Assembly: GCA_949317995.1 (NCBI GenBank)
Contig: OX439041.1
Span: 7,514,001 to 7,578,000, forward strand
Source of the DNA: Acholoe squamosa
Lineage: Eukaryota > Annelida > Polychaeta > Phyllodocida > Polynoidae
DNA: 64,000 nt
Direction: 5' to 3'
Shown in pieces: positions 3,831 through 62,106 of this stretch. The stretch's first letter is position 1. Every line of letters begins with the position of its first letter. Made by a program: the position numbers and the translations under genes. A model generated the notes under the pieces. That model was given only the letters and a program-made list of their open reading frames with translations. It was not told where the DNA came from and made no database searches.

Positions 3831-3839
3831 CTGTGTTTT

Positions 3840-18614: not shown

Positions 18615-18809
18615 ATTAATTATAATACCCGGAATAGTCCATTGACAGTATTGTAAAGGTGTTGGTACATCCCCATCTCTCCCATAAATCCCTTAGTGAC
18701 TCTATGAGGTTGTCAGTGGACTGTGAAAGTGTTAGTGCGAGTCCATCCATACCCTAGCACCCTCAGTGACTCTATAAGAGAGTCGGCAGACTGGGAAGGC
18801 ATTACTGCT

Positions 18810-22464: not shown

Positions 22465-23142
22465 TATAAAATTGGCAGTAGTTTTGTTAGGCTCAACTCC
22501 AGGCGAGTGCCGTCTCCAAAAATAAATTAAAAAGACACAGCTATAAGCTGGCGGAGGGTGTAAAATAACTTGAGCAAAACCAGTGACGTCTTACCGCCAC
22601 TATTTCGCCCTAGTTGTGAACAACATGGCGCCTGACCTCTCGTCCCGCGAGATCCCGCTATGGGCTATCCGGTGACCTAGTTCCGCACTTTCCCGCCACT
22701 CTGGTGGCCTCACCTAGTGGACTAGAATCTAACTAAAATTCGACTCGGTATACGAGATCCAGGTTGCTACCCGGGTGCTATCATCTGGAACTTAGTGGTA
22801 TATACATCGCTATAAAGCGAATGTACCCGTTAATCTGTCCACCGCTCACGGGATACAGCTACCCGAGGAACATGCATTTGACACCCCCAGCCGCGATACG
22901 TATATTATTCGCCTACGGCGGACAACACGCAGTAGCTCTTTGTGTACTGAGTTAGGTAAAGGCAGACCTCAGCCGAGGACTGTGTCTAACACCTTGGGTT
23001 AGCATTTTATTCTTCCCGGCTCTACATACGGCCTTCTCCAGGTCGCGCCTAGCCACGGCGAGGCCCTTCCCATATGTAATGCCTTCACTCAGCGAGACAT
23101 TTTTCCATTTCTTACAATTAGGCCGTTTCCTGGCCGTCGTCT
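22465..23142. other. Spacer between G2 pol and ORF3 (D1)
   Basis: About 680 bp with stops in all frames, GC-richer than most of the window. No LTR-like ends similar to 19,781-20,132 are present, which argues that ORF3 belongs to the same element as the upstream integrase. A splice or internal promoter signal for ORF3 would be expected here, but none was recognised. Confidence 0.55.
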
Positions 23143-23784
23143 TCTTTTTAGAAGCTACCTTCGCCTCCGGTGCTTCCTAGGCCGACCTCTAGGGCGTTTC
23201 TCGGGTACCGCTAAGCTAGGCTTGCTTAACGTTGGCCTAGGGGGTTGGTATCCGAACTCCCTCTCCGCCGCTTCGCGTCCATTCTAGGGCCGAAGCTTTC
23301 CTACGTTCGTCTTCTACCTTCTACCAGTATGGCAGTCTTCCACCATCACTATAGACTCGGAGATGATGCGCACAATCTTGAATGGAACCCCCCAAGGTGT
23401 CACAAGCTTCAAGTGTTCAAGGGGCTCGTAATACCTTAGTACCTTGTCCCCTACATTAAAGCGTATTCTTTTTGCATTGGTGTCATACCCCACCTTCTGC
23501 CATTTAGCACTTTTCAGCAGTTCTTTAAGAACGGCCTTGTATGCATGCTTGAATCTGTCCTGTAACGACTCCACAAACAACACAGTGCAGGGCGCCTCCG
23601 GTTCTATCCCAACCACTCCGTACACTAAGTCGGCGGGCATAATTATGTCCTCGCCGAATATCAAGAGGTTTGGAGTGCAATTAGTTGATGAATGGACAGT
23701 GTTGTTGTAGGCATGTACTACAAACTCGCACTGTTCATCCCAATCGTCCTGGTGGGTATTAACCAGGGGTTTTAGTACTTGTAT
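23143..23784 (-). pseudogene. G2 integrase C-terminal part with AT-hook-like tail (D1)
   Basis: Sense-strand order: end of the catalytic core, the chromoviral/GPY-type module around GDKVLRYYEPLEHLKLV and a WGVPFKIVRI strand, then a tail. The tail runs past an in-frame TAG into a basic segment with KRPRGRPRK at 23,173-23,199, a textbook AT-hook shape. In this copy the tail frame is also broken. The 5' side is cut at 23,784 by the transposon insertion; D2 shows the uninterrupted sequence. Confidence 0.8.
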
Positions 23785-23786
23785 AA

Positions 23787-25926
23787 GGGTCAGTGTCAGA
23801 ATAAGTGTACAAAACCTGGAAAACCATGGTTTTTGGCCTTTATGCAGCCATAGAATAACTTATACTTATCCAAATTTGTCTTCCATGGTCTCATCTTACA
23901 GAAGACATTCTAGCCTTTCAGAAAAATATCCATTTGTGTCTGTCGGGTAAAAATTCTTTGAGTTAAGGTTACCCAAAGTCCCAAAATCACTAAAAATTCT
24001 GATTTTTTTACAGTTTATGTCATTTTGCACATGTCCTATTGTCCACTCAAAGACTAGAAACCCATCCAAAATTGCCTGTGGTATTAGGCATATATTAGGC
24101 CTACACTATTTATGTCAGTTTAGGTGGATGTTGATTGAGAATTTTTTACTATGGTCACTCATGTGTGGAATTTTACTCTTCGAGGCGTCTGTGACAATAA
24201 CTCTTAGGTCAGAATAACTCTATCAATAATAGTGATATAATGTCTCTATTACATGTCACATAAAGAACTTATAAAGGGGTGAAGTTGGTAAAAAGATTTT
24301 AGCCATCGGTCAAATGGTCCTTGATTTGTGGGTCAGAATGTCCATGTGGACTGGGTTTTCGTCACAGACACCTCAACTAGATGTTATAATGTTGCTAATT
24401 TATTTAAGTATCTATTTGTGTTTCTTACATGTCATATCAACCATCAAAGCCAGCTTATCAATTCTGACAAGCATTGGTAGGCTGTGGGCCTCCAGTGTAG
24501 CATTTTGAGTACCATTTCTCATATAGGGGGTTTTCGTCACAGACGCCTCACGATTTTGTTTGTTGCAAAGTCAGAATCATCTGCTGTTACCCAGTGGAAG
24601 TCAATTACTTGGGAGAGCCTTGTTTTTGTCAAATAAGTGTTACAACTGGTTGTTTATCAAAGATTTTCTGAAGATTCTCTGCAGACTTCGACAAATTTTG
24701 CCATCAAAGTTTAGGAATCCGATCAAATTTCTTTCGCAGTTCAAAGATTATATCCCCTAGTACTTTCTGATGTGGTTAGATTTGGTTAATTTGGTCTTAT
24801 TTTGATGAAAACAGTATAGCTTGATTTAATCAGCAAGCCTCTTGGACTTGGCAGGTGGCTGCCATGTTGATTTTGGGCGATATTTGATACAGACTCATAT
24901 TTGTGAGGCGTCTGTGACAAAAACTCCTGTTGAACAAAATTCTCTCTGGCCAGCACCATATGCTGCCCTTAGGTCAAAAATGGATTGAAATGTGCCCCAA
25001 TTATTTTAGGGCATTTGCTACATGTTCTGTTGATTTTATTCAAGAGTTGGTGGGTCTAAAATTGTGTTTGACCTAAAATTGCCTCAAATTGCTCCAGAAA
25101 TTCCTACCTGTACATGAAATGAGGGTATTCAATTGACTTTTCTGTGGTTAATATGATGTTTTGTACTCCTCTTCATCAATTGTGTGTTAAAATCCCATTA
25201 CTTATTTGGCCACAACAAGCACCAAAGCGCAGAAATGAGTTTTCGTCACAGACGCCTCCGACAGAAATGAAATTCTGTTCTTGTAATCTTGCAAAGCATC
25301 ATCTATACAATATTTATTCTTGGTAGAGTACCTTTTGGGGGTCCCTTTACCTGTGTAAAATTTGGATTTTCCTCATTTTTTTCCACTTCGGCAGACATTC
25401 AACACTCAAGGGTACAAAATTGGTTTTAGTGAGGCCTCTACTGTTTTATTTTCCCCAAACTAGACATAATAAGGATTAGTTAGAGCAATTCTGGAGCTAA
25501 TCAGGGCATTATTGACAGAACTACAGTAAAGTTAGTGATTTGAAGATAAAATTGTCCAATTTTTCAATATTTTGATAATTATGTCCGGGCTCTCACAAAA
25601 AAATTTTAAAGATACAGTTTTGCATTCTTGTATGCTTAATCCAGTTAGTAATAGCTACTTGCAGCCCAAATTTCAAGTTGCTGTGATTGTCCTAACTTGT
25701 TTTAGAGCAATCCTAGAGTTTTCGTCACAGACGCCTCACAAAATTCGCTGATATCCAGTTGGCCATGAATAAAAACTGCAGTTCTTGGAGGAAGCCAGTC
25801 CACCAGGGGTTTTCATATGGCCAAGATGTTGCATTATCAATATAATACACTTTTGTAATGTTATCTTGACTTTCATCTTTCTGTACTGTGTGCACCAGAT
25901 ATGTGCACTTTTTCTGACATTCACCC
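23787..25926. mobile_element. 2.14-kb noncoding DNA transposon with scattered 20-bp motif
   Basis: The D2 copy is uninterrupted at 35,283, so this is a true insertion. Ends are imperfect inverted repeats: GGGTCAGTGTCAGAATAAGT on the left and, reverse-complemented, GGGTGAATGTCAGAAAAAGT on the right, matching at 16 of 20 positions. The flanking target bases (TAA left, TTA right, TCA in the empty site) suggest a short TNA- or TA-type duplication but are not identical, so the superfamily is unresolved. There is no transposase frame. Six copies of GTTTTCGTCACAGACGCCTC (or its reverse complement) occur at 24,182 (-), 24,355 (+), 24,530 (+), 24,904 (-), 25,239 (+) and 25,718 (+). Confidence 0.88.
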
Positions 25927-29679: not shown

Positions 29680-30925
29680 ACTGCTTCACAGTATTGGTCC
29701 CTGGTTGTCCCTGAGGCCACCTGTTTAACACTGTTGGTGCCTGGTTGTCCTTAAAGCCTTCCGCTTCACAGTATTGGCCCCTGGTTGTCCTTGAAGCCAC
29801 CTGCTTCACAGTATTGGTCCCTGGTTGCCCCTGAAGCCATCTGCTTATTATTGTTGGTCCCTGGTTGTCCCTGAAGGCACCTGTTTCATACTGATGGTCC
29901 CTGAGTGTCCTTGAAGCCACCAGCTTAACACTCTTGGTCCCTGGGTGTCCCTGAAGCCACCTGCTTAACACTCTTGGTCCCTGATTGTCATTGAAGCCAC
30001 CTGCTTCACAGTATTGGTCCCTGGTTGTCCCTGAATCCACCTGCTTCATACTGTTGGTCTCTGGTTGTCCTTGATGTCACCTGCTTAACACTGGCAGCCC
30101 CTTCTTGTCCCTGAAGCCTGCTGCTTCACACTGTCCACCCTTGGTTGTCCCTGAAGCCACCTGCTTAACACTGTTGGTCCCTGTTTGTCCTTAAAGCCTC
30201 CTGCTTAACACTGTTTGTCCCTGGTAGTCCCTGAAGCCACCTTCTCAACACTGTTGGGCCCTGGTTTTCCATGAAGCCTCCTCCTTCATACTGTCTACCC
30301 CTGGTTGTCCTTGATGCCACCTGCTTAACACTGTCAGCCCCTTCCTGTCCCTGAAGCCTGCAGCTTCATACTGTCGGCCCCTGGTTGTCCCTAGAGACTC
30401 CAGTTACAAACTGTTGGCCCTTGCTTGTGGCTGAAGCCTCCAGCTTCATACTGTTGGCCCTTGCTTGTCCTTGGAGCCACCTGCTTCATACTGCGGCCCC
30501 TGGTTGTCCCTGGAGACTCCAGTTACAAACTGTTGGCCCTTGATTGTGGCTGAAGCCTCCAGCTTCATACTGTTGGCCCTTGGTTGTCCTTGAAGCCACC
30601 TGCTTAACACTCTTGGTCCCTGGTTGTTCCTGAAGCCACCTGCTTGATATTGTCGGCCCCTTGGTGTTCCTGAAGCCATCTGCTTAACGTTCTTGGTGCC
30701 TGGTTGGCCCTGACGCCACCTGCTTCACAGTATTTGTTCCTGGTTGTCCCTGAAACGACCTGCTTAATATTATCTGCCCCTTGGTATCCTTGAAGCCACC
30801 ACCTTAGCATTCTTGGTGCCTGGTTGTCCCTGAAGCTACCTGCTTTACACTCTTGGTCCGTGGGTGTCCCTGAAGCCACCAGCTTAACACTCTTGGTGCC
30901 TGGTTGTCCCTGAAGCCACCTGCTT
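29680..30925 (+). repeat. 40-bp minisatellite array (D2)
   Basis: About 31 units, versus about 22 in D1. The extra units lie around 30,430-30,780. Copy-number difference between otherwise near-identical blocks is typical of minisatellite slippage or unequal exchange. Confidence 0.92.
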
Positions 30926-31001
30926 AACCCTTTTGTGCCCAGAATTATTTTGAGAGAGCTGTTTTATTCAACATACTTGACAAAGTAGAGGATATTACCT
31001 A

Positions 31002-31368: not shown

Positions 31369-32000
31369 CTTTACCTAGGGTAGGTGTTAAAAATTACCTG
31401 TTGTTAAAGTTGAAAATATGACATTAAAGGGGCATTATAAATAATATGTACATAGTAGTAGGCATCGTCGCATGTAATCCGAAGTAACTAAACAATAACA
31501 TAAATAGGAGGTGGTGCCTTATGCACCATCGACCTATGGTGGTATATTTAGGTAACAGTGTTACGAAGTTATTATAGTTAAGACGTATATAAATATGTTA
31601 AGTTATATATAGAGGTTGCATGTTGTAGTATTATATACAATATGAAGTAATAGTTACCTGAGAGGTAAGGTAACCCGAAGAAAAAAAATTTTTTTCCGTT
31701 TAGTTTATACAAAAAAATATAGCTTTATAAGAAAAATAAGTTATACATAATAAAATATGAATTTAAGAGGTGTCCTACCAGGGTAGCAGGATCACCCTTA
31801 CAAAAATACTATACTTCCGGCGAACCTGGAATGACTGGTTTCTGCAGCTCCATGCGGCGACAAATGAATGGTGGCAAGCCACGTTGCTGTATGTTGTGCC
31901 AGCCTGTCGGATCCGAATAGTCCTTTAAGAAGTTAATCTTCTGGCATAAAGTATGCCTGTACTCTCGGGTACTGGTGAGGTCAAGCCGGCAGATGGACAC
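31369..32000. other. AT-rich spacer, ORF3 to LTR (D2)
   Basis: Noncoding counterpart of 20,149-20,774. Nothing was recognised. Confidence 0.7.
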
Positions 32001-32687
32001 TTACAAGTCCTCGGACTCGTCTTCAGTGTCCATCTTCTCAGCTGGCTCTGGGTTAGTAGTGGGAGCCGAGCTGCTGCTGCTGCTTGTGGCAAGCAGCTTA
32101 AGGGCTTCAGTGCTTGGGTCACTGAGTAGATTCAGAGCACCCATGCCCTTGGAGGGACTGTCCACCGCTGCATCGGCTTCGGCACCCGAAGGGAGGACTA
32201 GAGATGACGCGGAGCCGTCCCAGTCATCCAGGTGCTTGCCAAAGCAGAGGAAGAACTTCAAGTCTGCCTCCTTGTACCTATGGATGTACTTCGAGTTGGA
32301 AAGACTGCCACTGCGATGGAAAGACTGCCACTCAGCCATCAGGTCATTCTGGATCTCTATGGTACGCACGTCTCTATGGTCGACGAACGTACCAAGATCC
32401 TGAAGACCTGACAGTGTGCTGGCTATCAGTCCCATGATGGGGAGCCGAGGGCCAGCGGATGGGGTGGTAGCTGTTGCTGGTGCAGGAGCCTTACGCAGTA
32501 ACAGGCGAAGCGCCTGCAGAAGGGACCTCGGTACCCTCAACTGTGGTGCCTCCCCGGCCTCGGCTGTAGCCCGGGGGCGCTCCGGTGGATTCAACTCCAC
32601 TTTCCCTTCCCGAGTCGCTGCTCGTGTAGATGCCCGCTCCTCTAGGTTGGGCTCGGCTGGTGGTAGTAGTACCAGTCGAAGCCACAA
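32001..32687 (-). CDS. G2 ORF3b, second frame of an unknown env-position protein
   Basis: 228 codons overlapping the end of ORF3a (32,491-33,963) by 197 nt in a different frame. Either a frameshift joins them or an indel split one gene. The N-terminal ~70 residues are an out-of-frame continuation of Ser/Arg-rich sequence. The middle looks globular, with motifs such as LIASTLSGLQDLGTFVDHRD and YKEADLKFFLCFGKHLDDWD. The C-terminus is Ser-rich and strongly acidic (EKMDTEDESEDL). There is no signal peptide or membrane segment, so it is not a recognisable envelope protein. D1 carries a decayed copy at 20,775-21,450. Confidence 0.5.
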   Translation of the reverse strand: MWLRLVLLPPAEPNLEERASTRAATREGKVELNPPERPRATAEAGEAPQLRVPRSLLQALRLLLRKAPAPATATTPSAGPRLPIMGLIASTLSGLQDLGTFVDHRDVRTIEIQNDLMAEWQSFHRSGSLSNSKYIHRYKEADLKFFLCFGKHLDDWDGSASSLVLPSGAEADAAVDSPSKGMGALNLLSDPSTEALKLLATSSSSSSAPTTNPEPAEKMDTEDESEDL

Positions 32688-33963
32688 CCGAGGTGGTGGC
32701 GGTCGTCCCGCTGGTGGTAACAGTGGGCGCTGCAGTAACCGGGGTGGCTACTGTGGCTGTAGTGGGTTTGTAGGCTGCGGCCTTCGGGTCGCCCTTATCC
32801 CTCTTCTTTGTAGTAGAGGGTTCGGGCTCTGCCGGAGACACTTTTGCTCCATTCTTCTTCTTCTTCCTTCCCTTGGATGGCTGTGGCAGGGCCTCGGGGC
32901 TGGAATCCAATTTACGGGACTCCTTGTCCTTAGCCCGAGTGCTCCTCCTGCTACTGACTAGTGAGTCAGTGCTGAAGGCGGCACTCGCCTGGAGTTGAGC
33001 ATGCTGCTTGCGGTGCGCCAGGTGGGCAGCGGCTAGCTCCTTCTGCTGCTCGTCAAGCTCACGATGCTTGGCTTCAACAGCAGCTTCCTGGTGAGAGATG
33101 TCCTCATCCGAGATGCCACCAGCCGCCTCAGGTATACTGGTGCCTGGCCCCTTCTCGGACTTGGACCTTTCAATCGCTATCCAAAGGTCCTCCTCCTTGA
33201 GATCAGACTCGGTCAGTGGCCCCTTCGGCATAGGCTTACAGCTCAATTTCTTGGTCCGTCCTGATTCCACGGATGACTGTGTGATGGTGGAGTCTGTATC
33301 CATTTCTGACTCAGATTCTCTGAGCTGGCTTGCCTTCCGGGTAATCCCTTCGGACAAAAGCACAGCTCGAGCCAAGTTCCCGTCAAGCGCCATAGCTCCC
33401 ACCAACCATCTATAGTTGCGGAGCCACGACACTGGCATGTTCTCGGCTAACTCGTCCATACATGAGTCTATTACCAGAGTCTTGAAATCATCTGGGATAT
33501 TCTCGGGTTGTGCGGGCACTTCCGCTAGGGGACTGCATCCAAACATGGAAGGATGCATGGGGATGTACGTCCCCCAGCTCGTGAACACCACACCCTCATC
33601 CTCATCCATGTGGGCGAGATGCTGGGTGCGGGTCCTGAATCCCGGAGGATACAGCAGAATGTCCATGACATCTATTCCCATTGGACAAGGCGGGTTCGCT
33701 GGACCCGGGGCTGAGGGTTCTGGACCCTGATTCGGTGGAGGAGGCATCCGCTCCCTGTCTGCGACCTCAGTTGACATGGCAGAGAGAGTCTGGGCGGCTT
33801 CTTCCACTTCTGGTTCTCGTCGGAGACCAGTATTAGAGGACTCCATGGTCTCCTCTACCCGAGACGAGACCGTCGGGTCCTCGCCTTCATCGAACTCAAT
33901 GTTGGCTGTTTGATGTGCAGCGTCAATCGTCCCCTGTGCCATCACAGAGGGGCAATCTTCCAA
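32491..33963 (-). CDS. G2 ORF3a, unknown protein downstream of integrase
   Basis: 490 codons. It opens with an acidic Glu-rich region (about residues 1-70), then a Pro-rich segment (75-95), then a globular-looking stretch (about 100-210) with WGTYIPMHPSMFG and MPVSWLRNYRWLVGAMALDG. Next come an acidic/Ser region, a coiled-coil-like segment (about 290-330, HRELDEQQKELAAAHLAHRK), a Lys-rich patch with GRKKKK, and a Thr/Ala/Val-rich tail. It lies about 0.7 kb downstream of the integrase tail and 0.6 kb upstream of the polypurine tract, the place of env or an accessory gene in gypsy elements. It lacks any hydrophobic signal or anchor. A separate gag-only element was considered but is less likely, since no 5' LTR precedes it. 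The frame is long and intact, unlike G2 pol. Confidence 0.6.
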   Translation of the reverse strand: MEDCPSVMAQGTIDAAHQTANIEFDEGEDPTVSSRVEETMESSNTGLRREPEVEEAAQTLSAMSTEVADRERMPPPPNQGPEPSAPGPANPPCPMGIDVMDILLYPPGFRTRTQHLAHMDEDEGVVFTSWGTYIPMHPSMFGCSPLAEVPAQPENIPDDFKTLVIDSCMDELAENMPVSWLRNYRWLVGAMALDGNLARAVLLSEGITRKASQLRESESEMDTDSTITQSSVESGRTKKLSCKPMPKGPLTESDLKEEDLWIAIERSKSEKGPGTSIPEAAGGISDEDISHQEAAVEAKHRELDEQQKELAAAHLAHRKQHAQLQASAAFSTDSLVSSRRSTRAKDKESRKLDSSPEALPQPSKGRKKKKNGAKVSPAEPEPSTTKKRDKGDPKAAAYKPTTATVATPVTAAPTVTTSGTTATTSVVASTGTTTTSRAQPRGAGIYTSSDSGRESGVESTGAPPGYSRGRGGTTVEGTEVPSAGASPVTA

Positions 33964-34640
33964 TATAAAATTGGCAGTAGTTTTGTTAGGCTCAACTCCA
34001 GGCGAGTGCCGTCTCCAAAAATAAATTAAAAAGACACAGCTATAAGCTGGCGGAGGGTGTAAAATAACTGGAGCAAAACCAGTGATGTCTTACCGCCATG
34101 ATTTCGCCCTAGTTGTGAACAACATGGCGCCTGACCTCTCGTCCCGCGAGATCCCGCTATGGGCTATCCGGTGACCTAGTTCCGCACGTTCCCGCCACTC
34201 TGGTGGCCTCACCTAGTGGACTAGAATCTAACTAAAATTCGACTCGGTATACGAGATGCAGGTTGCTACCCGGGTGCTATCATCTGGAACTTAGTGGTAT
34301 ATACATTGCTATAAAGCGAATGTACCCGTTAATCCGTCCACCGCTCACGGGATACAGCTACCCGAGGAACATGCATTTGACACCCCCAGCCGCGATACGT
34401 ATATTATTCGCCTACGGCGGACAACACGCAGTAGCTCTTTGTGTACTGAGTTAGGTAAAGGCAGACCTCAGCCGAGGACTGCGTCTAACACCTTGGGTTA
34501 GCATTTTATTCTTCCCGGCTCTACATACGGCCTTCTCCAGGTCGCGCCTAGCCACGGCGAGGCCCTTCCCATATGTAATGCCTTCACTCAGCGAGACATT
34601 TTTCCATTTCTTACAATTAGGCCGTTTCCTGGCCGTCGTC
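33964..34640. other. Spacer between G2 pol and ORF3 (D2)
   Basis: Counterpart of 22,465-23,142. No long frame and no recognised signal. Confidence 0.55.
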
Positions 34641-36080
34641 TTCTTTTTAGAAGCTACCTTCGCCTCCGGTGCTTCCTAGGCCGACCTCTAGGGCGTTTCT
34701 CGGGTACCGCTAAGCTAGGCTTGCTTAACGTTGGCCTAGGGGGTTGGTATCCGAACTCCCTCTCCGCCGCTTCGCGTCCCTTCTAGGGCCGAAGCTTTCC
34801 TACGTTCGTCTTCCACCTTCTACCAGTATGGCAGTCTTCCACCATCACTATAGACTCGGAAATGATGCACACAATCTTGAATGGAACCCCCCAAGGTGTC
34901 ACAAGCTTCAAGTGTTCAAGGGGCTCGTAATACCTTAGTACCTTGTCCCCTACATTAAAGCGTATTCTTTTTGCATTGGTGTCATACCCCACCTTCTGCC
35001 ATTTAGCACTTTTCAGCAGTTCTTTAAGAACGGCCTTGTATGCATGCTTGAATCTGTCCCGTAACGACTCCACAAACAACACAGTGCAGGGCGCCTCCGG
35101 TTCTATCCCAACCACTCCGTACACTAAGTCGGCGGGCATAATTATGTCCTCGCCGAATATCAAGAGGTTTGGAGTGCAATTAGTAGATGAATGGACAGTG
35201 TTGTTGTAGGCATGTACTACAAACTCGCACTGTTCATCCCAATCGTCCTGGTGGGTATTAACCAGGGGTTTTAGTACTTGTATCAAAGTCCTATTGAACC
35301 TTTCCACCTGACCATCCGACTGTGGTCTGTATGGGTTGGTTCAGGTCTTACATATTGCTAAGTAATGGCACATTTCCTGTCATAACTCTGACTCAAACTC
35401 TCTTCTTTGATCACTGTGCATCATGAGGGGCACACCCAAATGTAGCACCCAGCCTTTTACAAATGCTTCAGTACATGTAGCGGCTTTGTGGTTTGGAAGA
35501 GGAAACACTCGAGTATACTTTGTATAGTAGTGTATGATGACCATAATAGAGGTGTTCTCTCTAGGCGTCGTTTTAAATCCACTGATGATGTCGATTGCTA
35601 CTCGACCAAATCGAACACCAAACAATTCCTAGGACAAAGGTAACTTGCCTAAGCCGGGTCCTGGCTTGTTTTTACAACAATCCGGGCAAGTTGCAATCCA
35701 CCGAAGTAGGTCACTTCTCATACCGGGTCAGTAGTATCGTCTCTGGAGATGCTCTATGGATCTTTTCTTTCTAAAATGGTCACTTGTTTGGTGGCCATGA
35801 CAATAATACATGATATCCCTTCTCATAGAGGTGGGAATCACTATTTGTAATAGCTTACTGCCGGTGGAAGAGGTTTTCCACCTGCACAGTATACCATCTC
35901 GGATCTCCAGCTCGGTCCATTGAGCTATCAATCGCCTCGTCTCTCTGTCTTCCAGAGATAACATCGGCCTTACCGGCTTAATACCTTTCTGCAAGTATTC
36001 CATTATGTGCGCAGTGGTGGGGTCCGACTGTTAGAACTTCTTGATGGTCTCCAGGGACCTATCAAGATAGCTACATACAG
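34641..36080 (-). pseudogene. pol (IN): G2 integrase
   Basis: Joins the D30-to-D45 strand transfer domain of the degenerate minus-strand gypsy. Segments in sense order: 36,003-35,728 with the HHCC zinc finger; 35,625-35,380 with the two catalytic Asp motifs (AIDIISGF, HSDQRREFE); 35,307-34,783 with the catalytic Glu motif (VERFNRTL), the C-terminal barrel and GVPFKIV strand, ending VGKLRP then TAG. After that stop the same frame continues about 50 codons to an AT-hook-like KRPRGRPRK at 34,672-34,698. Several frameshifts and stops separate the segments, so it cannot be active as written. A D1 copy exists in two parts, at 23,143-23,784 and 25,931-26,724. Confidence 0.88.
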
Positions 36081-38423: not shown

Positions 38424-39299
38424 TCAAATCAACTCTTTGATCCATCCTTCCTCTCCCCCAGTGCGGCCACTCGCCTCTGAATTCTTGCCACCGTACAAAT
38501 TAACACTAGGGTCCCTGGTCCCGGTCAGGGTGATGGGGTGCGCACCCACAGTCACCCGACCTCCAGGTAAATTTGATTCGGAATCTTCCACCGGATTACC
38601 CTCAGCATTCGTTTCCTGCTGGGGTTATACCTAATGCCGTTGGTACAACCCCCACTAATTTCCCCCTACCTCGGGAGCTTCCGTGTCATTCTGGCTTTCC
38701 TCGCTTTCAGCTTCGGCTTCGTAATAAGTCGCCATTACCGGTTTTGCAGTGGTACATTCAGAGGAATAGTGCCCCATTCTTTAGCACCTAAAACACTTAA
38801 CCGTTCAGCAGTCCACTCGGGGTCTTGACCGACTTGCTTGTAGTGCATCTGTTATTTTCTTACACTTTTCTTCCATCATTTTGGTCATATCCGGAGATTG
38901 ACCCCTCGCTTTGTCAGCGCTATCAGTGGGCTTATAAGCTTTGCTACTAGCCTTAGCTTCGCCTCTGGCTTCGGATGGTGCTTTAGCATCCTTTTGCTTG
39001 TTGAAAACCTTCCTCGGAATGTATTTCGTACCAGAAGTGTTTTTTCTTAGCTGCATTGAGCAAAAGGTACCATCCTCCTGCTCGATGTCTATCAATTCAA
39101 AGTCATCCGAGGTGTTGTCTACCTCGGATCGTTGACTTACAGACGCTACTGGAGTGGGTCCCGATGTGTTCGGGATGTCTCCGGCCAGCATCGTACGTTT
39201 CTTCACGGCCATATCTATTCCATTGAATATGCCGTGCAGGGTAGTGCCCTCTTTCCAGGCGTCCCTAGCAGCCATTTGCTCGTCTCGGTCTCTTAGACC
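38424..39299 (-). pseudogene. gag (partial): G2 gag C-terminal part
   Basis: Sense order from 39,299: a segment homologous to the post-capsid helices of the G1 Gag (RDRDEQMAARDAW), the acidic linker (IEQEDGTFCSMQLRK), a Lys/Ala-rich linker, and a CX2CX4HX4C zinc knuckle near 38,755-38,800 interrupted by TAA (CFRC, stop, RMGHYSSEC). Everything upstream (capsid, matrix, leader, 5' LTR) is missing; 40-bp minisatellite abuts at 39,300. The 181-codon open frame 38,805-39,350 begins inside the minisatellite, so its first ~17 residues are not Gag. Confidence 0.82.
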
Positions 39300-40320
39300 T
39301 GGTGGTCCATGAAGGCTCCTGCCTAACACTGTTGGTCCCTGGTTGTCCATGAAACCTCCTGATTAACACTTTTGGCCCTTGGTTGTCCCTGAACATGGTC
39401 ATTTTGTGACAGTTACTCTAAGCATTAATAGATTTGCTTAAAAACCATAAACCAATTAATATCAAAAATTTCCTATCATTCTATATAATTTTCATTTATG
39501 TTACTCCCTGCTTTATATTTTTGACAAATTTCAGTAAATAAAAAGTTATCAATGATTACTTTATTTATTTTTATGATGTATTTTTCTGGAAAACACAGAA
39601 AATCACGAAAAATGCCATAAACAAATTTTCAATTATCTAGTTGGAATAATATAATCATGAACTTTGCTCGCAGTTATGAATATTAATTGACCTAACATTA
39701 ATCTTTAATGAATTTTCAAATTCATGTTTGGCATGCCCCTTTGTTACATTGTCTGGTATGGGGTCTGTGGCATTTCTATGAGCTTCACCCTGTTGCTCCC
39801 TTGGAGCAACAGGGTGAAGCGCCATCTGCTTCATACTGTCGAACCCTGACTGTCCCTGAAACCTCCTGCTTCAAATTGCTGGTCCCTAATTATCCCTGAA
39901 GTTGTTGCTGCCCTGATGTACTTGAAGCCACCTACTTAACACTGTCTGCCCCTGGGTGTCCCTAAAGCTTCTGGCTTCACTTCGTTGGCCCATGGGGTCT
40001 TTGAAGACACATGAATCATCGGCCGCTGGTTGACCCGGAAGCCTCCTACATCATTAGGTCTACCAAAGATTCTCCTTGAAGCCTTGTGTTTCAAACTCTC
40101 AGCCGTTGAGTTTTTTTTAAGCCTCCTGTTTCAAATTCTTGGCCCCTGGTTGTCCCTGAAGCCTCCTGCTTCAAATTGCCGGTCTCTAGTTTTCCCATGA
40201 AGCCTCCTTCACATTTTGGCCCTTTAATGTGCCTGAAGCTTCACTTTGTTGGCCTCCTGCTCAACATCTCCCTGAAGCTTCCTGCTTCATTGCATTGGCC
40301 CCTTGATGTCCCTGCTAGGT
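39300..40320 (+). repeat. 40-bp minisatellite remnants and 18-bp hairpin (A3)
   Basis: Minisatellite units at 39,300-39,395 and 39,830-40,320, with AT-rich DNA between. The perfect hairpin, arms 39,782-39,799 and 39,803-39,820, duplicates 6676-6714. Confidence 0.85.
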
Positions 40321-46756: not shown

Positions 46757-47577
46757 AAAGTGTGGGGTCCCACAGGGCTCTATGCCTCTCATAAAACACC
46801 TTTTACTGCAGCCCAGCTCTAACAAAGAGACCTACATAAGCTAGTAGACTGGACAAAATTAAACCATTTGACCATAAATATCAAAAGGACTAAAATTATG
46901 TATTTTGGCACCAACTATTCCCTTAAAAGAACAGACCCAAACACCCAGATAGTTTTGGAAAATCACACTCTTGAAATTGCAAATTCATTTAAATATCTAG
47001 GGATGATTTTGGATGGGGAACTAAAATATGACCTTCACATAAAAGACTTAAAAGTGAAAATCGTGTATAGAATCATACAATTAGCTAGGGTCAGAAAATA
47101 TATGTGCCTGAAACAGTCTAAACAGATTCATAAATCCAAGATACTACCTTATTTTGATAAGGTGATATACTATATGATGGAACATCAGTGTTACTGACAG
47201 ATAGACTCCAGAGACTCCAGAATAGAGCTCTTAAGATCTGCCTCAGATTGCCTCGCTTAACGTCAACTGCTACAGTACACAAAGAAGCTGAAGTAAACTA
47301 TCTTGATGAGAGGAGAACCTCCCATATATTGAAATTTGCGTTCAAAAAGTGTGATATTCTAGCCAATAGACAAAACCCCACTAGGGCCACTAGGGCCAAT
47401 GACGGACCCCTGCTCAAATATATGCATGCAAACAAACAAATAACAAGACACAGTGTTGCATATAAGGTTGAAACCCAATTGAATTATCTTCCAGTTGGGG
47501 AAAGGCTACTAGAGGATTATGAAACCTTTTGCAAAGACCAAAAAACTACTCTGTAGTGTAAAAGGCTGAAATATGAG
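46757..47577 (+). pseudogene. LINE reverse-transcriptase fragment (second copy)
   Basis: Duplicate of 13,883-14,703 with extra damage. A small indel near 47,155 breaks the thumb region into frames 46,868-47,197 and 47,188-47,556, and a 9-nt repeat unit is lost near 47,390. GVPQGS is at about 46,764. Confidence 0.83.
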
Positions 47578-55101: not shown

Positions 55102-55583
55102 TTTTTTTTTTTTTTAGTGAATTTTATTAAGGGTAACTCAGTATAGTATGTTTAATAACATACAACCGAGACACTGGACTACGGTCGTGCCGGTCCGCCG
55201 TCCAGGCCTTCTTTAAACTGACTAACTGCTATGATTTTTCACCTTTTTGTGTAATGACATAACAATTTAACAACAACATATGCCTTAACAAAATTTCTTG
55301 TGTATGTATCACTTTTCATATATGGGTATGGATTGGGGGTGTGGGGGTGGGGTAAGGGTGGGAAGGGAAATGAGATCCATCTTGATTCTTAGCTATATAC
55401 TCATAGATATATATCACAATACATAGCATATGATACACCATTGGTTTGGTTTGGTTTGAAAATGGGAAATGTAGTGCCTACAAACACTTGGTTGGCACCT
55501 CTTTGGTATGTATGAAGTACATATATTTAAAAAGTCAATATACCACAATGAAATATATGTGTTTGGTATACAGTAAGCACATT
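55102..55583 (-). other. LINE 3' UTR and poly(A) tail
   Basis: Noncoding sequence between the EN-RT stop and the A-rich tail. The sense strand ends CCTTAATAAAATTCACT before the A run, so an AATAAA lies next to the tail. A G/C-rich purine-pyrimidine tract occurs at 55,330-55,370. Confidence 0.8.
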
Positions 55584-58427
55584 TTATAAGTTTTCTCTAT
55601 CATATGGAGGTAGGTAACAGTTTGGATATTCCTTTTTGACCTTTAAGTTAAACTGTTTAAACTCAACTATATTAACGAAACATGGTTTTAGTTTATTCCA
55701 CTGTCTAATTGCCCTGTGGTGGAAACTCTTATAGACCACCGGATTCCTGGAATATCTTTGGATATATCTAATACCTGTATTATACCGTGTGTTGGCATGT
55801 CTTTGATTGACCACATTTATAATATCCTTCAGTTTAAAAGCATAGAATAATAGATGTATATCACGTCGGTGCTTAATATATCGGCACTTACTTGTGCTAT
55901 GGAGCTGGTCTGTGTTTAGTAGTGGGTTTGGACCCAGCTTGACACCAAAAGCAATACGGAGTGCTTTATTTTGTAACAATTGAAATCTTTCAGATGATGC
56001 AAAGGTATGCTTATCCCATACAATATCAATGTATTCCATCAGTGGTAATATTGTCGTCTTGTATACATTTACAGCTGATTCTACATTGAGATATTTTCTT
56101 ATTTTGGCAAATTGATGTATTTTTGATTCAACGTTATCATGAACATTATCCTCGTGTATGGTGAAGTCAAGCTTATCATCAATTGTAATCCCCAGATATT
56201 TGAATTGATTTACTTGTGCCAATGGGGTGCCACCAATACTGGGTGATACTAAGTTTTGTACAACCTGTAGTCCAATTGACATCCAATATGTTTTGTCCTT
56301 ATTTATGGTTAAGAGATTATCAGCACACCATTTATCTATGCTATCAACACTTGCGCGTAGTATATTCATATTAGTGGAAGAAATAGCTGCATCATCTGCA
56401 TAGAGAAAAGTTTGACATTGAGGGGCACATTTAGGTAGATCATTTATGTAAAGAGTAAACAGCATGGGTCCCAATATTGAGCCTTGGGGCACACCATATT
56501 TCACTCCTTTCAATTTAGACAACACATCATTAGCAATGACCTTCTGATTTCTATTTGTCAGATAACTTGCAAACCAACTACAACTATTATTTGCCAATCC
56601 CAGCTTTTTTAACTTCCTTATTAAAAGACAGTGTGAAACAGTGTCAAAAGCTTTGGAATAGTCCAAAAATAGACTGAATGTATTTAAGTTGTTTTCAACA
56701 TTGTCATAAATATATCTTAAGTAGGATGTGGTAGCAGTAGTGGTCGAATGTTTTGGTCTAAAGCCATGCTGATTTTGACACAAAATATTTTTGTCATCCA
56801 TGAATTTTCTAAGTCTTTTACTCATAAGTTTTTCAAATATTTTTCCTGGTAATGGAAGCAGACTGATTGGCCTTAAGTTAGTGACCAATTTTGAGTTTGG
56901 CTTCTTAGGGATGGGGCAGACAGTAGCTACCTTCCATGACTGTGGAAAGTACTGATTCTGTAAGCAGCAATTAAAAATACGACATAAATGTGAGGGGTCA
57001 TTTTTAAAGATATCACATAAAACTTTAGTTTTCCGATGTTTAATATTTGATGACTTGGTTTGATCAATTTCAGCGACAGCTTTGACTATATCTTGGTTAT
57101 TAAATAATTCAACAGTGATATCAACATCATCGACACTATCAGGTTGCATAGGGTCGACAACAGGGGGGGGATGTTTGGCAGCTAGCTTCTCCCCAATTGT
57201 GGAGAAGTAATCATTTATATAATCAGCGACCATATTTGTTGGAAGATCGTCTCCGGTTGTATCATCCTTTAACTTTATGATTTTAGTGCCTCTTCCTTTA
57301 GGAAGTAACTTCCTTACAGCTTTCCAGAAATTCTCAGGGGTCTTTTTGTCTTTCAATAGCTCATCTAGTATATTTTTCTTTGAGCGCCAAATTTCCCCTT
57401 CTACTGCAATACGTTTGAGGTGAGCTCGGAGCCAATCACCCACTCTCCCTGTCTCTCTTGCTTTTTTATATAATCTATCTCTTTCCCTCATTTTATCAAT
57501 AATCACTGGGGTTAACCACTCATGCTTCTCCTTTGAGACATAAATATTACGGATGGGCGCAGTCGGCATTACACATTCATTAATGGCAGTGTGGTATATT
57601 TTCCATAACCTATCAGGATTTTGACAATTATTAAAGTCTGTCCAGTCATAAATGGCTAGCCTCCGAAAAACATCAGTCATATCTATCCTTTTATATGAAC
57701 GCACCGCTACAGATTTTTTGGCTATCTTATTTCTTTCCTTCTTCAAAATGAGGTAGACTGGGTAATGGTCACTATAATTCAAATTAATTGTATTGGCCTC
57801 AGCAACTATTTCACTATTGGTGTAAATATGATCCAGATTGGTTTTACTTTTGCCAACACTACGTGTTGGTTTATTTATCAATTGTTTCAGCTTACGCGCA
57901 TTACAGAAGGAATCAATACCATATTTTTTCCTATTTGCTGGTATATAGTTTACATTAAAGTCACCAGTAATGATGAAAGTGCAGTTTCCTTCTATGTTGT
58001 CAATAATGTTGCCTAGTTTATTATACAGACTAGTCGGTTGTACTTCAGGAGGTATATAACAGCCAATGAACTTATACAATTTAGCATGTAAGACAAGATC
58101 GACAACCAGTATCTCATATAATGGTGTAATTTCACTCAATTCATCACATTGTGTACAGTCCATGTCCTCCTTATAATATATTATTATTCCACCACCTCTT
58201 TTATCAATGATGGGCTGTCTATCCATCCTAATGAAATCATATCCACTAATGTCTAGTTTGGAATCAGGATCTGAGGGTTCATACCATGACTCAATGACTA
58301 TGCCCACATCAAAATTATACAGCAGTCTTTTAAAGTCTACCATTTTCTTATCAGTAAGACTACGTACATTGTGGCATACAATCATAAGACCTTTTTTACT
58401 ATTAAGTTCATTTAATTCTATGGACAT
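55584..58427 (-). CDS. LINE endonuclease-reverse transcriptase (ORF3)
   Basis: 947 codons from an ATG at 58,427. The N-terminal AP-like endonuclease (about residues 12-228) has all key residues: Asn20 (VCHN), Glu46 (IESW), Asp156/Asn158 (TGDFNVN), Asp199/His200 (NLDH) and Asp220/His221 (YSDHYP). The reverse transcriptase (about 500-760) has NLRPISLLPLPGKIFEKLM, QHGFRPKHST, LFLDYSKAFD (Asp589), GVPQGSILGP, YADD at 676-679, and FKYLGITID, followed by a C-terminal thumb/connection region. It nicks target DNA and primes cDNA synthesis. The set of motifs fits the Jockey/CR1/L2 group. It is the longest intact ORF in the window and looks recently active. Confidence 0.96.
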   Translation of the reverse strand: MSIELNELNSKKGLMIVCHNVRSLTDKKMVDFKRLLYNFDVGIVIESWYEPSDPDSKLDISGYDFIRMDRQPIIDKRGGGIIIYYKEDMDCTQCDELSEITPLYEILVVDLVLHAKLYKFIGCYIPPEVQPTSLYNKLGNIIDNIEGNCTFIITGDFNVNYIPANRKKYGIDSFCNARKLKQLINKPTRSVGKSKTNLDHIYTNSEIVAEANTINLNYSDHYPVYLILKKERNKIAKKSVAVRSYKRIDMTDVFRRLAIYDWTDFNNCQNPDRLWKIYHTAINECVMPTAPIRNIYVSKEKHEWLTPVIIDKMRERDRLYKKARETGRVGDWLRAHLKRIAVEGEIWRSKKNILDELLKDKKTPENFWKAVRKLLPKGRGTKIIKLKDDTTGDDLPTNMVADYINDYFSTIGEKLAAKHPPPVVDPMQPDSVDDVDITVELFNNQDIVKAVAEIDQTKSSNIKHRKTKVLCDIFKNDPSHLCRIFNCCLQNQYFPQSWKVATVCPIPKKPNSKLVTNLRPISLLPLPGKIFEKLMSKRLRKFMDDKNILCQNQHGFRPKHSTTTATTSYLRYIYDNVENNLNTFSLFLDYSKAFDTVSHCLLIRKLKKLGLANNSCSWFASYLTNRNQKVIANDVLSKLKGVKYGVPQGSILGPMLFTLYINDLPKCAPQCQTFLYADDAAISSTNMNILRASVDSIDKWCADNLLTINKDKTYWMSIGLQVVQNLVSPSIGGTPLAQVNQFKYLGITIDDKLDFTIHEDNVHDNVESKIHQFAKIRKYLNVESAVNVYKTTILPLMEYIDIVWDKHTFASSERFQLLQNKALRIAFGVKLGPNPLLNTDQLHSTSKCRYIKHRRDIHLLFYAFKLKDIINVVNQRHANTRYNTGIRYIQRYSRNPVVYKSFHHRAIRQWNKLKPCFVNIVEFKQFNLKVKKEYPNCYLPPYDRENL

Positions 58428-59235
58428 AATATATCATCTTAGTCAAAGTATTATCACAGATGTGTTTTCCAATCACAGGCTGATTTCCCTTACAATCGAT
58501 ATTATAGGATCTCTGGTATGTTGTAGGGGTTCAGGGCAGGGATGGGAAGGGGGGTATGTGGGTGGGCAAGGGTTTGTGGCCTTTAATAGGCTAGGGTTCT
58601 TAGCGTGTAATAGCATCATGATGGGAGGGGGGGGTGGGTCACTGCACCCAAATGACATTAATACTTTTACATAATATTTCTAATCTAGCTAAATACATAT
58701 TGGCACTGGTACTATATGATTTCTCTTGTCGTAGGCACAACAGGAGATTTTCATATGTATGAAATAACATAATGATATTTATTGTTGCATAGTTTTGTGA
58801 TTATAGTCAAGACACAAGATGATAAATATGTTGTAATCTGTGTATCCCGGAGGGTACACAATAACTATTCTTAGGCACTATACAAATCATAGGTTATATA
58901 ATAGTTACAGTCACTATATATGACAGTGCTGGTAGTAGGCACAATCAGTACTTGTGCTTGTAAGCTCACCGTCAAGATTGACTTCATAAGTGTTTCTTTG
59001 CTGGTCGTAGGCACAATCAGCATATGCTCATAAGCTCATTATGGTAATATTAGTGACAACAGGCAGTGATTTTATCTGTGCTGGTCGTAACCACAATCTG
59101 TACTATATCTATCGGAATTACCACCATACAGTTAGTACAAATGAACATGTATATATAGTCTATGCTGGTCGTAGGCACAATCAGCACTTCATATATAAAT
59201 ACAAACGTTTCCCAATAGTTAATTATATATGTACA
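58428..59235 (-). promoter_or_regulatory. LINE inter-ORF gap with repeated hairpin motif
   Basis: An 808-nt noncoding gap, unusually long for a LINE. Five copies of GGTCGTAGGCACAATCAGCA or a close variant occur at 58,726, 58,926, 58,999, 59,078 and 59,162; a sixth is at 60,038 in the other gap. The better copies have flanking TGCTG/CAGCA that can pair around a ~13-nt loop. Role unknown. Translation initiation for the downstream ORF or RNA recognition are possible readings. Confidence 0.7.
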
Positions 59236-59907
59236 TTAGTACAGAGAGACTTTGTGCACGTTATGTTTTGTGCTCTCATGTATCATTCCTGCTACTTTTC
59301 CTAGGTTGGTGTTATCAAAGTGACAACCGTCCTGTAGGCATTTATACCTGTGGGCGTACTTGCCTCTACCTTTAGAGTGGTGGCATAGCGATGATAACCA
59401 AGGGGTTACCAGGCTAGTGGCACTATTGAAATTGATTATGTATGTGTTCACTTTGACCATGAGCTCATTTAAATCTTTTTGTTGGGGGTGTGGGTGGTCT
59501 GAATCAATACCATTGTATTTGTTTAGATCAATCCCTACAATGGGCAGGAACAAGATTTTGCAGTGGGAAGTGGCAGGGTTGTTTCTGATTTTATCAAAAG
59601 TCGTGTTAACTGTAGATACAAAGTTTCCATAGATCAATTCAGTATCATTCCACCTCAGGTATGTCAGCTTAGTGTGATGGTCTCTAAAGGTGATATCACA
59701 TATTCCACCAAACAGCAGTATCATGTCTGGACGGGCAGTACGTGCCAATAGCATTGCTTTCTGTGCGAGCACTGATAGACCTCGTCCTTCGTAGGGGACT
59801 GCCATATACTGTACTTCTAAATCATCCTTTGGTAGCAGATCATCCAAGGATGGGTCCCTGCGATCTCTAGGCTTTCCCCATGAGTCACATATAACCATTG
59901 CATTCAT
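59236..59907 (-). CDS. LINE SGNH-hydrolase-like protein (ORF2)
   Basis: 223 codons from an ATG at 59,907. The pattern fits the SGNH/GDSL esterase fold: a nucleophile block ICDSWGK (Ser9), a Gly block near GRGLSV (41-46), a GGICDIT block (67-73) in place of GxND, and Asp193-x-x-His196 (DGCHFD) near the C-terminus. SGNH esterase domains are known in the ORF1 of some CR1 and L2 LINEs; here the domain is a stand-alone ORF between ORF1 and EN-RT. Its substrate in LINEs is not established. Assignment is from motifs only. Confidence 0.72.
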   Translation of the reverse strand: MNAMVICDSWGKPRDRRDPSLDDLLPKDDLEVQYMAVPYEGRGLSVLAQKAMLLARTARPDMILLFGGICDITFRDHHTKLTYLRWNDTELIYGNFVSTVNTTFDKIRNNPATSHCKILFLPIVGIDLNKYNGIDSDHPHPQQKDLNELMVKVNTYIINFNSATSLVTPWLSSLCHHSKGRGKYAHRYKCLQDGCHFDNTNLGKVAGMIHESTKHNVHKVSLY

Positions 59908-60141
59908 CCTAGGAAAAACATAATCTATTAGCCTATTTTCTGATATTTTCTAAAGTGTTTTAAAATTTTAAATAAAAAACTTTTAAAAGATATAATAGCT
60001 CCCACAGTATCAGTATTATGTATCATTTTTTATGTACCATGGTCGTAAGCACAACCACGACTCTATCAAAACTCATGTAATTTAAATAAGGTCATTATTA
60101 GAACCATTTCAATTTTAAAAGGTCAGCATGATATGCATGCT
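59908..60141 (-). other. LINE gap between ORF1 and ORF2
   Basis: 234 nt, AT-rich, with one copy of the hairpin motif at 60,038-60,061 (CATGGTCGTAAGCACAACCA). No frame. Confidence 0.7.
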
Positions 60142-61881
60142 TTACAAATTTAGAACTGGCGACTGTGCATGCCCACGTCTGTATCGCTGTTCCTTGGGCG
60201 TATGAACTTGTGCTTGCGGGTACCCTTGTGCTACTATACCTGGTCGCCATTGCTGTGCTATTTCAGTGTGTCCTGCTGCTACATATTGCGGTCTACCTGG
60301 CGGTGGGGAGTGCACATGTGTATATGTTACCAGTTGTTGTTGCTGCCCTGCTAATTGCATATGCATTAATTGGGGTGGAGGGGGTTGTACTCCTACGGGC
60401 AATGGGAGGGGGGGCGTTTCCCCTGCAGCTGCTTGGGGTGGCGGAGACCCATTTGGTCGATCGTTCACTGGTAATTGGTTACGGGGTGATGCGTCCTGTA
60501 TACCTCCCTGTGGTGAGTGTGCTGGGGCAGGGGGAGGGGGTGGGGGTGGAGTGCCTAGCGCTTGCTGTGTCTGCACTTGTCCTAGCAGATGTGGGTACAT
60601 GTTTCGCCGGATCTCTGCCCTAACCTTCTCGAGAATTGCCCCTCCTAGATTCCTTCCGGGAAAGGAAAAATTATTCAGCGATCTAGCAGTAATGCTTGTT
60701 CCGGTCCCCCACTTGCGTGAGGCACTTGTCTCCAATAACCGACGATTTCCGGTATTTACTAGGATATCGGCCAAATATGGATTTTGTTCATATTTGTGCA
60801 TATTGTATTGTTCTATGCAGGCTTCCTCTCGCGCATCCCATTCTGGACAGATAATGTCCTTAGCTAGCTTCTTTACTTTGAATGGGCACTTAGTATCAAG
60901 AATGTTCTGTAATTTTACCTGTGAGACCCCAGCAAATTTAGCTTTTTCAAAGGCAATACCATGTTCAACTGATGCAAAAACTCGGCCATCATTGGTGATA
61001 TGACACTCGTGTAAATTTGACAAGGGTGCATCTGGAGAGTGGTAGGCTACAAAGGTTGCAGTAGTGCGAGTACGAGCATTTTCTATGCTTACCTCAGGTG
61101 GTAGGTCTGAGAGATTGTAGTGTAAGAAGTAATTACCATTGTTTAGTACTCCACGGCCCCTGCTTTGTATGTCAATTTTAGCCCTTTGTGCTAGCCTAAC
61201 CACGGCTCTTACATCAGCCTTCTGCTGCCTGACTTCTGAACAATCATCATGATTGATAAACACTTGTCGGTACCCTTCAACCTTTTTTAGGTCTGCCTTA
61301 GCTTTGAGTACCCTATCACGTGCAGCGACTGTGGAGAAAGTTACCAGTATTGGTCGGGAAATTTGTGCCTTCGGGCCTTGTCTAATAGCCCTATCAATGT
61401 CAGTATCTTTAATTGTAGGGCAGATTTTCCTCACTAGGTCAAGGGTTTTTTCATTGAGATTCTCATCATCCGTGTATCCAATCCCATCAATTAATAAATT
61501 TCTGCTCCTGGTCTGCTGGTCTACGTTAACTAATCTGTCATTAGTTTCACTAAGCGCTAACTCTAGTCTTCTTTGATTTAACTCTAGCTCACCGTTTTTA
61601 ATTTTTAAGAGGGCTACCTCCTGTTGTAATTTCACTATTGAATCACTGTGGCAAGCCACCTCTTCCTGAGTACCCTCCAGCGACTCTGTAAGACCTGTGA
61701 CATCGGGCCTATTTGCAAAGCCTTGTTTGACTGTTTCCAATAAGTATACTAAGATAGTGCCAATTTTAGTGAGATCATCGTTTTTACTACCTTGACGAGT
61801 ATTTGAGCGGTGAAATAATTCAGTTACCGCCTTCTGTACTGGTTCAGGTATGTCCAGCATTGTTGGGTTGCCGTCCGCCAT
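60142..61881 (-). CDS. LINE ORF1: coiled coil, RRM-like and NADAR domain
   Basis: 579 codons from the ATG at 61,881, in good context (ACAACATGG); the frame is open upstream to 61,935 but without an ATG. Residues 62-125 are a heptad-type coiled coil. 127-210 resemble the RRM of L1-type ORF1p (RNLLIDGI, then RPILVTF). 210-265 look like its C-terminal domain. 275-425 match NADAR/YbiA: PLSN, SVEHGIAFEKAKFAG (Glu306, Lys313), EWDAREEACIEQ, LVNTGNRRLLE, WGTG at 391 and GRNLGGAILEKVR. The tail (440-579) is Pro/Gln-rich with a polyproline run. ORF1p proteins bind LINE RNA. NADAR enzymes act on NAD-derived or ADP-ribose-linked substrates, including guanine-linked ADP-ribose. The fusion is seen directly; its role here is unknown. 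Confidence 0.88.
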   Translation of the reverse strand: MADGNPTMLDIPEPVQKAVTELFHRSNTRQGSKNDDLTKIGTILVYLLETVKQGFANRPDVTGLTESLEGTQEEVACHSDSIVKLQQEVALLKIKNGELELNQRRLELALSETNDRLVNVDQQTRSRNLLIDGIGYTDDENLNEKTLDLVRKICPTIKDTDIDRAIRQGPKAQISRPILVTFSTVAARDRVLKAKADLKKVEGYRQVFINHDDCSEVRQQKADVRAVVRLAQRAKIDIQSRGRGVLNNGNYFLHYNLSDLPPEVSIENARTRTTATFVAYHSPDAPLSNLHECHITNDGRVFASVEHGIAFEKAKFAGVSQVKLQNILDTKCPFKVKKLAKDIICPEWDAREEACIEQYNMHKYEQNPYLADILVNTGNRRLLETSASRKWGTGTSITARSLNNFSFPGRNLGGAILEKVRAEIRRNMYPHLLGQVQTQQALGTPPPPPPPAPAHSPQGGIQDASPRNQLPVNDRPNGSPPPQAAAGETPPLPLPVGVQPPPPQLMHMQLAGQQQQLVTYTHVHSPPPGRPQYVAAGHTEIAQQWRPGIVAQGYPQAQVHTPKEQRYRRGHAQSPVLNL

Positions 61882-62106
61882 GTTGTTTTTCCAGTGAATT
61901 CTCAATAACCATGTAAGAATCAAGAGAATACTCACTTTACAGTCCAGCTGTGGTGGTAAGAATAGCTTAAAATACCTCCTGGGCGTTTTATGATTGTGTG
62001 TGACGAAAATTTACAGTCCTAACTGATAGTTGTACAGTTGTAAGTCCTTTATTGGGCGCAGCGGCCACGACACACGTCTACACACATGACGCCATTACAC
62101 GCCATA
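61882..62106 (-). promoter_or_regulatory. LINE 5' leader
   Basis: About 225 nt between the G1 junction and the ORF1 ATG. It should contain the internal Pol II promoter of the LINE; no canonical box was recognised. Confidence 0.6.

Follow-up and report, generated by a model that had tools for sequence, protein, structure and literature searches.

ORF1 proteins of LINE retrotransposons are usually viewed as coats for the element's RNA. A locus in the window (the whole 64-kb stretch of DNA that was analysed) raises the question of what a YbiA-type NADAR domain is doing in such a protein, how it came to be there and whether it matters to the element. The original prediction had read a coiled coil, an RRM-like region and a NADAR domain in one uninterrupted frame; that frame and its domains stand, with the correction that the coding strand is minus (Table 1). 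The explanation that we consider best as a whole, at a probability of about 0.4, is that the NADAR domain is a selected part of the ORF1 protein which would strip guanine-linked ADP-ribose, and that it would have entered LINE ORF1 once and spread by ORF1 transfer.

Table 1. Coordinates of the LINE and its features within the window
Feature	Position	Strand	Description
Complete LINE	55102..62104	-	7,003 bp; 3' end AATAAA...A(14)
ORF1	60142..61881	-	579 aa + stop; coiled coil, RRM, CTD, NADAR, Pro-rich tail
Coiled coil	61504..61707	-	residues 59-125; modelled helix 59-127, model confidence modest
L1-type RRM and CTD	61066..61503	-	residues 127-272
NADAR domain	60607..61041	-	residues 281-425; E306, K313, W348, E384, W391, N411
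RNA hairpin unit	60035..60062	-	spacer between ORF1 and middle ORF
Middle ORF from first Met	59236..59907	-	223 aa + stop; SGNH/GDSL-hydrolase-like
RNA hairpin unit	59161..59188	-	spacer between middle ORF and ORF2
RNA hairpin unit, poorly paired copy	59077..59104	-	spacer between middle ORF and ORF2
RNA hairpin unit	58997..59024	-	spacer between middle ORF and ORF2
RNA hairpin unit	58925..58952	-	spacer between middle ORF and ORF2
RNA hairpin unit	58721..58748	-	spacer between middle ORF and ORF2
ORF2	55584..58433	-	endonuclease + RT, 949 aa (stop to stop); RT motif of CR1/L2 type, GVPQGSILGPMLF

The element has the features of a non-LTR retrotransposon, with an ORF2 that carries endonuclease and reverse transcriptase (RT) domains (Exo_endo_phos_2, E 1.2e-7; RVT_1, E 3.9e-39), a poly-A 3' end and a position within other sequence. 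Counted along the sense strand of the LINE, ORF1 occupies 224-1963, the open frame of the middle ORF 2156-2869 and ORF2 3672-6521. The interrupted host sequence is the RNase H region of a Ty3/gypsy-like pol on the plus strand, whose RT and integrase domains lie on either side of the LINE. Its RNase H domain (PF17917) is broken, positions 2-67 and 71-105 falling on opposite flanks, and when short flanks of about 60 bases each were joined at 55099/62105, a single pol frame was restored, VVVYTKKFKHFLWGSDFTLRTDHSS. The target-site duplication amounts to at most a possible 2 bp, TA. L016 and L017, two near-identical copies of the element at other places in the genome, rule out an assembly chimera. 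The window also holds large segments that recur with identical ORF content (20695-23859 and 31921-35340; 5699-6256 and 38805-39362), as well as tandem 40-bp arrays at 18805-19714 and 29681-30935; these apparently represent a segmental duplication or additional gypsy-like copies. Two plus-strand stretches, 13975-14601 and 46850-47466, are C-terminal RT fragments from other LINEs, with 30-32% identity to ORF2. Neither Rfam families nor tRNAs were found within the 64-kb window, and a scan of viral contigs with ORF1, ORF2, P0001-P0003 and the NADAR piece did not find relatives.

The window ORF1 has the coiled coil, single RRM and CTD that define type II (L1-like) ORF1 proteins, an arrangement shared with the type II ORF1s of CR1/L2 elements (PMC4120745). 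Extra domains (PHD) and exchange of ORF1 between lineages have been described for the latter, and the available part of that account does not mention NADAR, unlike what we see here (PMC4120745). Pfam Transposase_22 gave no match to the window protein and reached E 0.0035, under the cut-off, with P0003, a second ORF1-NADAR family; the window protein alone, run with phmmer against the PDB, matched neither L1 nor NADAR entries. A profile search, proposed as a check on the original prediction, gave a clear result for the second half. PF08719 matches at E 5.5e-21 (75.9 bits, curated cut-off 35.1 bits) within the L1-type ORF1p frame, which bears out the fusion, and the profile match of this region to structure 8bau has an E-value of 2e-22. 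A chance match is ruled out by these E-values together with the existence of further copies.

Alignment to the NADAR of P. nicotianae, in the numbering of PMC11543638 and assuming an inferred two-residue (tag) offset, equates E306 with E43, K313 with K50, W348 with W89, E384 with E125 and W391 with W133. Glu306, Lys313 and Trp391 are thus present as originally claimed, as is Glu384. The fold, the catalytic Glu/Lys/Glu and the YbiA-type Glu are shared with the bacterial DarT1-linked NADAR antitoxin and YbiA (PMC11543638, PMC11125620), whereas the window NADAR is fused to a retrotransposon RNA-binding protein, and a search for a DarT-type ADP-ribosyltransferase partner gave 0 matches in the genome, the element's own ORFs including none either. 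The YbiA subfamily is marked by Glu, in place of Asp or His, at its diagnostic position (PMC11125620); this is E384 in the window, and each of the 14 intact ORF1s taken from the same genome has the Glu. All 14 also keep E306, W348, E384, W391, N411 and R421, and 11 keep K313, the three L1/Tx1-type proteins having Arg instead. Other positions vary. R79 of P. nicotianae is replaced by Lys341, and D130, the Asp of YbiA and the P. nicotianae NADAR that is reported as a water-mediated contact (PMC11543638), by Ser388 (Ser in 9/14 and Asp in 5/14 intact ORF1s). Among the four group-D ORF1s, W391 is Tyr in L045, L046 and L048 and Trp in L047. We did not assign the domain to TIGR02464 (riboflavin-intermediate N-glycosidase), for which it scores 62.6 bits against an equivalog cut-off of 73.7.

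Such variation at catalytic-site positions (Ser for D130 and, in group D, Tyr for W391) would be expected if the NADAR fold gave the LINE RNP a surface for contacts with protein or RNA, with glycohydrolase activity secondary or lost, and a parallel exists in the nematode trans-splicing protein SNA-3, whose role in RNA metabolism depends on residues of its NADAR domain (PMC9303266). However, both catalytic Glu residues and, mostly, the Lys are kept across families that are less than 40% identical, and a mere scaffold would not need them. We consider a role confined to RNP assembly unlikely.

The fusion is not peculiar to this copy, a possibility that, combined with a lack of selection, the original prediction had equated with chance capture. 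In the window's own assembly (1.48 Gb), the ORF1 query gave at least 75 scored matches from 5,056 first-look candidates, 56 of those listed being without an internal stop. The P0003 family gave at least 120 scored matches from 2,931 candidates and PF08719 at least 150 from 3,224, with all 150 of those listed above the cut-off; Pfam NADAR likewise exceeded its cut-off in nine of nine further ORF1s examined. Two stand-alone NADAR frames of 222 and 247 aa, L044 (C17:9900763-9903248) and C14:682108-682554, have the top Pfam scores among the genome matches listed and are candidate host genes. Two ORF1-NADAR frames (L020/L023, C1:58.93 Mb) form a tandem pair spanning about 3 kb, and the sequence fetched around them contains no match to ORF2. 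In the protein database, the NADAR domain alone as query yielded 52 candidates, none of them significant, and a re-search using the alignment returned the same three proteins again.

Selection on the domain was assessed with 11 intact ORF1s from 20 fetched loci (L015-L034, nine with broken or short frames being excluded) plus L035-L037. One comparison was confined to pairs with NADAR dS of at most 1.5; the other used six chosen pairs with dS up to 2.9, and the ratios from its wide pairs are approximate because dS is partly saturated. In four pairs of diverged copies from one related family (L028, L029, L030 and L034), dN/dS in the NADAR domain was 0.034 (bootstrap 0-0.072), 0.023, 0.048 and 0.014. 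Corresponding values were 0.025, 0.013, 0.013 and 0 for the RRM/CTD and 0.30, 0.25, 0.20 and 0.27 for the tail, and ORF2 gave 0.061 in one pair of this family. The contrast between NADAR and tail (0.014-0.048 against 0.20-0.30) lies within the same frames and holds despite saturation. Two close pairs from other families had NADAR ratios of 0.08 (0-0.27) and 0.037 (0-0.17), and the window domain differs from each of its two near copies by two synonymous and zero replacement changes. The exception is the pair L019-L021, at 0.52 from six changes. These data support purifying selection on the NADAR domain, near the level of the RRM/CTD and far below the ratios of the tail.

A functionless passenger, captured from the host or from a bacterium, might have been suspected from the general ease of capture and from the two stand-alone NADAR genes in the genome, but the very low NADAR dN/dS and the same architecture across diverged families and both ORF2 types refute it for the families tested, and its chances overall are negligible. 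Chance capture is ruled out by the low dN/dS. Since the fusion recurs and is under purifying selection, the domain is neither a single-copy accident nor free of constraint; as judged from sequence, these results establish the fused YbiA-type NADAR as a standing, selected part of a predicted L1-like RNA-binding chaperone.

NADAR-ORF1 stands before two unlike types of ORF2, one CR1/L2-like, as in the window, and one L1/Tx1-like. The window ORF2 has a GVPQGS motif, which we take to be a mark of CR1/L2-type RTs, and it scores 43.4 bits against human L1 ORF2p, the same as against R2, compared with 255 bits for the ORF2 of L043; an L1/Tx1 placement was ruled out on this basis. We label the window element as probable CR1/L2 type (Jockey superfamily) by its motif and its non-L1 likeness. 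Five CR1/L2-type ORF2s align with one another over 897-970 columns and with that of L043 over only 195-276, the window ORF2 accounting for 276. Downstream of ORF1, 17 of the 20 fetched loci have a relative of the window ORF2; the RT motif, found by pattern in 12 of the 20, is always GVPQGS, and L045 and L047 also have a GVPQGS-type ORF2. By contrast, the ORF1-NADAR frames of L035 and L036 are followed by an L1/Tx1-like ORF2 with GTRQGCCLSP (L042, L043).

The ORF1 proteins of both kinds are nevertheless related outside the NADAR domain, in their N-terminal halves (window versus L035, E 4e-8). Within it, the second Glu and the Trp are six residues apart in all 14 LINE-type NADARs, a set that includes near-copies and represents about eight families, whereas the spacing is seven in seven of nine others (one has 11 and one is without the Glu) and also seven in 8bau and YbiA. 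A one-residue deletion is therefore common to 14/14 LINE-type NADARs and 0/9 others, and is absent from the stand-alone L044. This shared deletion leads us to favour one origin, in which the NADAR domain would have entered LINE ORF1 once and then travelled with ORF1 between elements of CR1/L2 type and of L1/Tx1 type; for CR1 and L2 lineages, exchange of ORF1 has been documented (PMC4120745). The NADAR tree neither shows nor rejects a single origin, since the LINE NADARs are not one clade on the best tree (2 changes), form one clade in 12% of bootstraps and give an AU p of 0.515.

The element has two other unusual parts. The open frame between ORF1 and ORF2 is 237 aa long, against a maximum of 151 in 1,000 shuffles, and profile searches found no direct family match for it. 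It is 26.6% identical (E 1.35e-10) to the middle ORF of L056 (L056:5719-6531), which matches PF13472 (GDSL) at E 5.1e-6, under the curated cut-off, and lies between a NADAR-ORF1 with a broken frame and ORF2, in the same order as in the window. Two unlike LINE families have an SGNH/GDSL-like ORF in this place, after a NADAR-ORF1 and before ORF2. The Ser/Gly/Asn/His blocks were read by eye, with the Asn of the third block replaced by Cys in the window. Folded alone, the protein gave a pLDDT of 38 and no significant fold match, so we claim no fold from that model. Its search of the genome returned at least 150 scored matches from 598. A LINE-encoded SGNH-type hydrolase is also present in the ORF1p esterase of ZfL2-1 (PMC3905857), but the SGNH-like unit of the window LINE is a separate ORF between an RRM-bearing ORF1 and ORF2. 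According to the parts of these papers available, none of the esterase-type ORF1 proteins in Repbase has an RRM (PMC3905857), and the esterase ORF1 type is confined to two vertebrate subgroups (PMC4120745).

The second part is a repeated RNA hairpin, TTGTGNNTACNA, of which six copies occur on the LINE sense strand, all within the two inter-ORF spacers; the opposite strand and the remainder of the window have none. The arms of its core, UUGUGCCUACGA, covary: 5 of 11 pairs are changed on both sides, and 84.8% of cells are paired compared with 72.9% after shuffling and at most 61.1% after sliding, the rows not being independent because all come from one element. In a census of the 20 fetched loci, L016 keeps five units, L017 six and L018 (ORF1 about 71-73% identical) two, with none in the other 16 of 20. 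The genome holds seven occurrences of an 18-base form of the hairpin, and the three close copies account for six of them. Five single matches of the exact 16-base core in viral contigs were judged to be chance. The hairpin is perhaps a binding site for a protein of the element or a translation signal.

The idea that no LINE with a NADAR domain was known has been overtaken, as one sentence of a 2025 Ectocarpus paper reports that several Tx1 LINE families in Crassostrea gigas have a YbiA-type NADAR in their ORF1 (PMC12477816). This paper is the sole precedent from our literature search on NADAR/DUF1768/YbiA in retrotransposons, which covered few subscription papers and no Repbase. The oyster elements share a NADAR in LINE ORF1 with ours, and L035-L037, with L042 and L043, look the same kind (PMC12477816); the window element differs in its CR1/L2-type ORF2, SGNH-like middle ORF and RNA hairpins. 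Analysis of selection or architecture is absent from the main-text mention of the oyster elements (PMC12477816). The same source places a NADAR at the N-terminus of an Ectocarpus Gypsy Pol and suggests a bacterial origin; this is again a YbiA-type NADAR in a retrotransposon, but in an LTR element and in Pol instead of ORF1, a likeness drawn by description only (PMC12477816). The CR1/L2-type carriers, the evidence of selection, the shared deletion, the SGNH-like middle ORF and the covarying RNA hairpin are new here.

As to what the selected domain does, tested NADARs remove guanine-linked ADP-ribose in DNA and RNA while leaving phosphate-end marks untouched, and according to the available text no other tested hydrolase reverses guanosine ADP-ribosylation of RNA, the macrodomain and ARH enzymes tested being inactive (PMC11833690). 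We predict, as the best reading, removal of ADP-ribose from element RNA, cDNA or target DNA. ORF1p multimers would coat the element RNA through their coiled coil, RRM and CTD, and this coating would hold the NADAR active site against element RNA, cDNA and the nicked target. There the domain would free guanines of ADP-ribose by N-glycosidic hydrolysis, the single activity common to tested NADARs on DNA and RNA, the mark having been made by host or parasite, and reverse transcription would no longer be blocked at the cleared guanine. An animal enzyme of the relevant kind has been described in the clam, where CARP-1 is a guanine-specific DNA ADP-ribosyltransferase with a proposed role in innate immunity (PMC8053099). 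We count against removal of guanine ADP-ribose the changes of D130 to Ser, R79 to Lys and W391 to Tyr (3/4 group D), the missed TIGR02464 cut-off, the failure to find DarT in the genome, the lack of a LINE clade in the NADAR tree and the ratio of 0.52 for L019-L021.

Evasion of a PARP-like defence, which had been offered as an alternative, fits poorly, given that tested NADARs skip phosphate-end marks (PMC11833690) and that in human cells PARP1/PARP2, together with PARylation, help L1 to insert (PMC8535693). The latter fact would suit the converse role, in which NADAR recognises breaks by binding their ADP-ribosylated DNA, RNA or protein and, during target-primed reverse transcription, delivers the RNP to nicks marked by PARPs, as would entry 8bau, by its title a structure solved with ADP-ribose. 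Yet the hydrolytic Glu residues would be dispensable in a reader, the phosphate-end marks left alone by tested NADARs speak against it (PMC11833690), and binding of poly-ADP-ribose by NADARs is unreported in the portions of the literature examined; we hold such tethering to be very unlikely. Clearance of small molecules, whether ADP-ribose/NAD-derived alarm signals or by-products of RNA repair, has been proposed for several viral NADARs (PMC9503650), and YbiA works on small riboflavin intermediates (PMC11543638). Tethering an enzyme to an RNA-coating protein would, however, be an odd route to a diffusible molecule, and macromolecular targets are favoured for the NADARs of eukaryotic RNA viruses (PMC9503650), which makes this role distinctly improbable in our view.

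Removal of guanine-linked ADP-ribose could be taken further, to a single NADAR-ORF1 fusion that, as an anti-restriction module, has come to be shared by two LINE superfamilies through spread between them and erases guanine ADP-ribosylation from LINE RNA or cDNA. This would imply that animals have a so far unrecognised defence in which the nucleic acid of retrotransposons is marked with ADP-ribose; we regard this larger claim as possible but doubtful. The shared deletion and the matching N-terminal half of ORF1 provide a marker for ORF1 exchange across LINE superfamilies. These abundant elements carry in ORF1 an enzyme-like domain under strong purifying selection, and the known nucleic-acid job of its relatives is the removal of guanine ADP-ribose. 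If our reading is true, they would offer a concrete, testable case for nucleic-acid ADP-ribosylation acting on animal retrotransposons, where targets and erasers are largely unknown.
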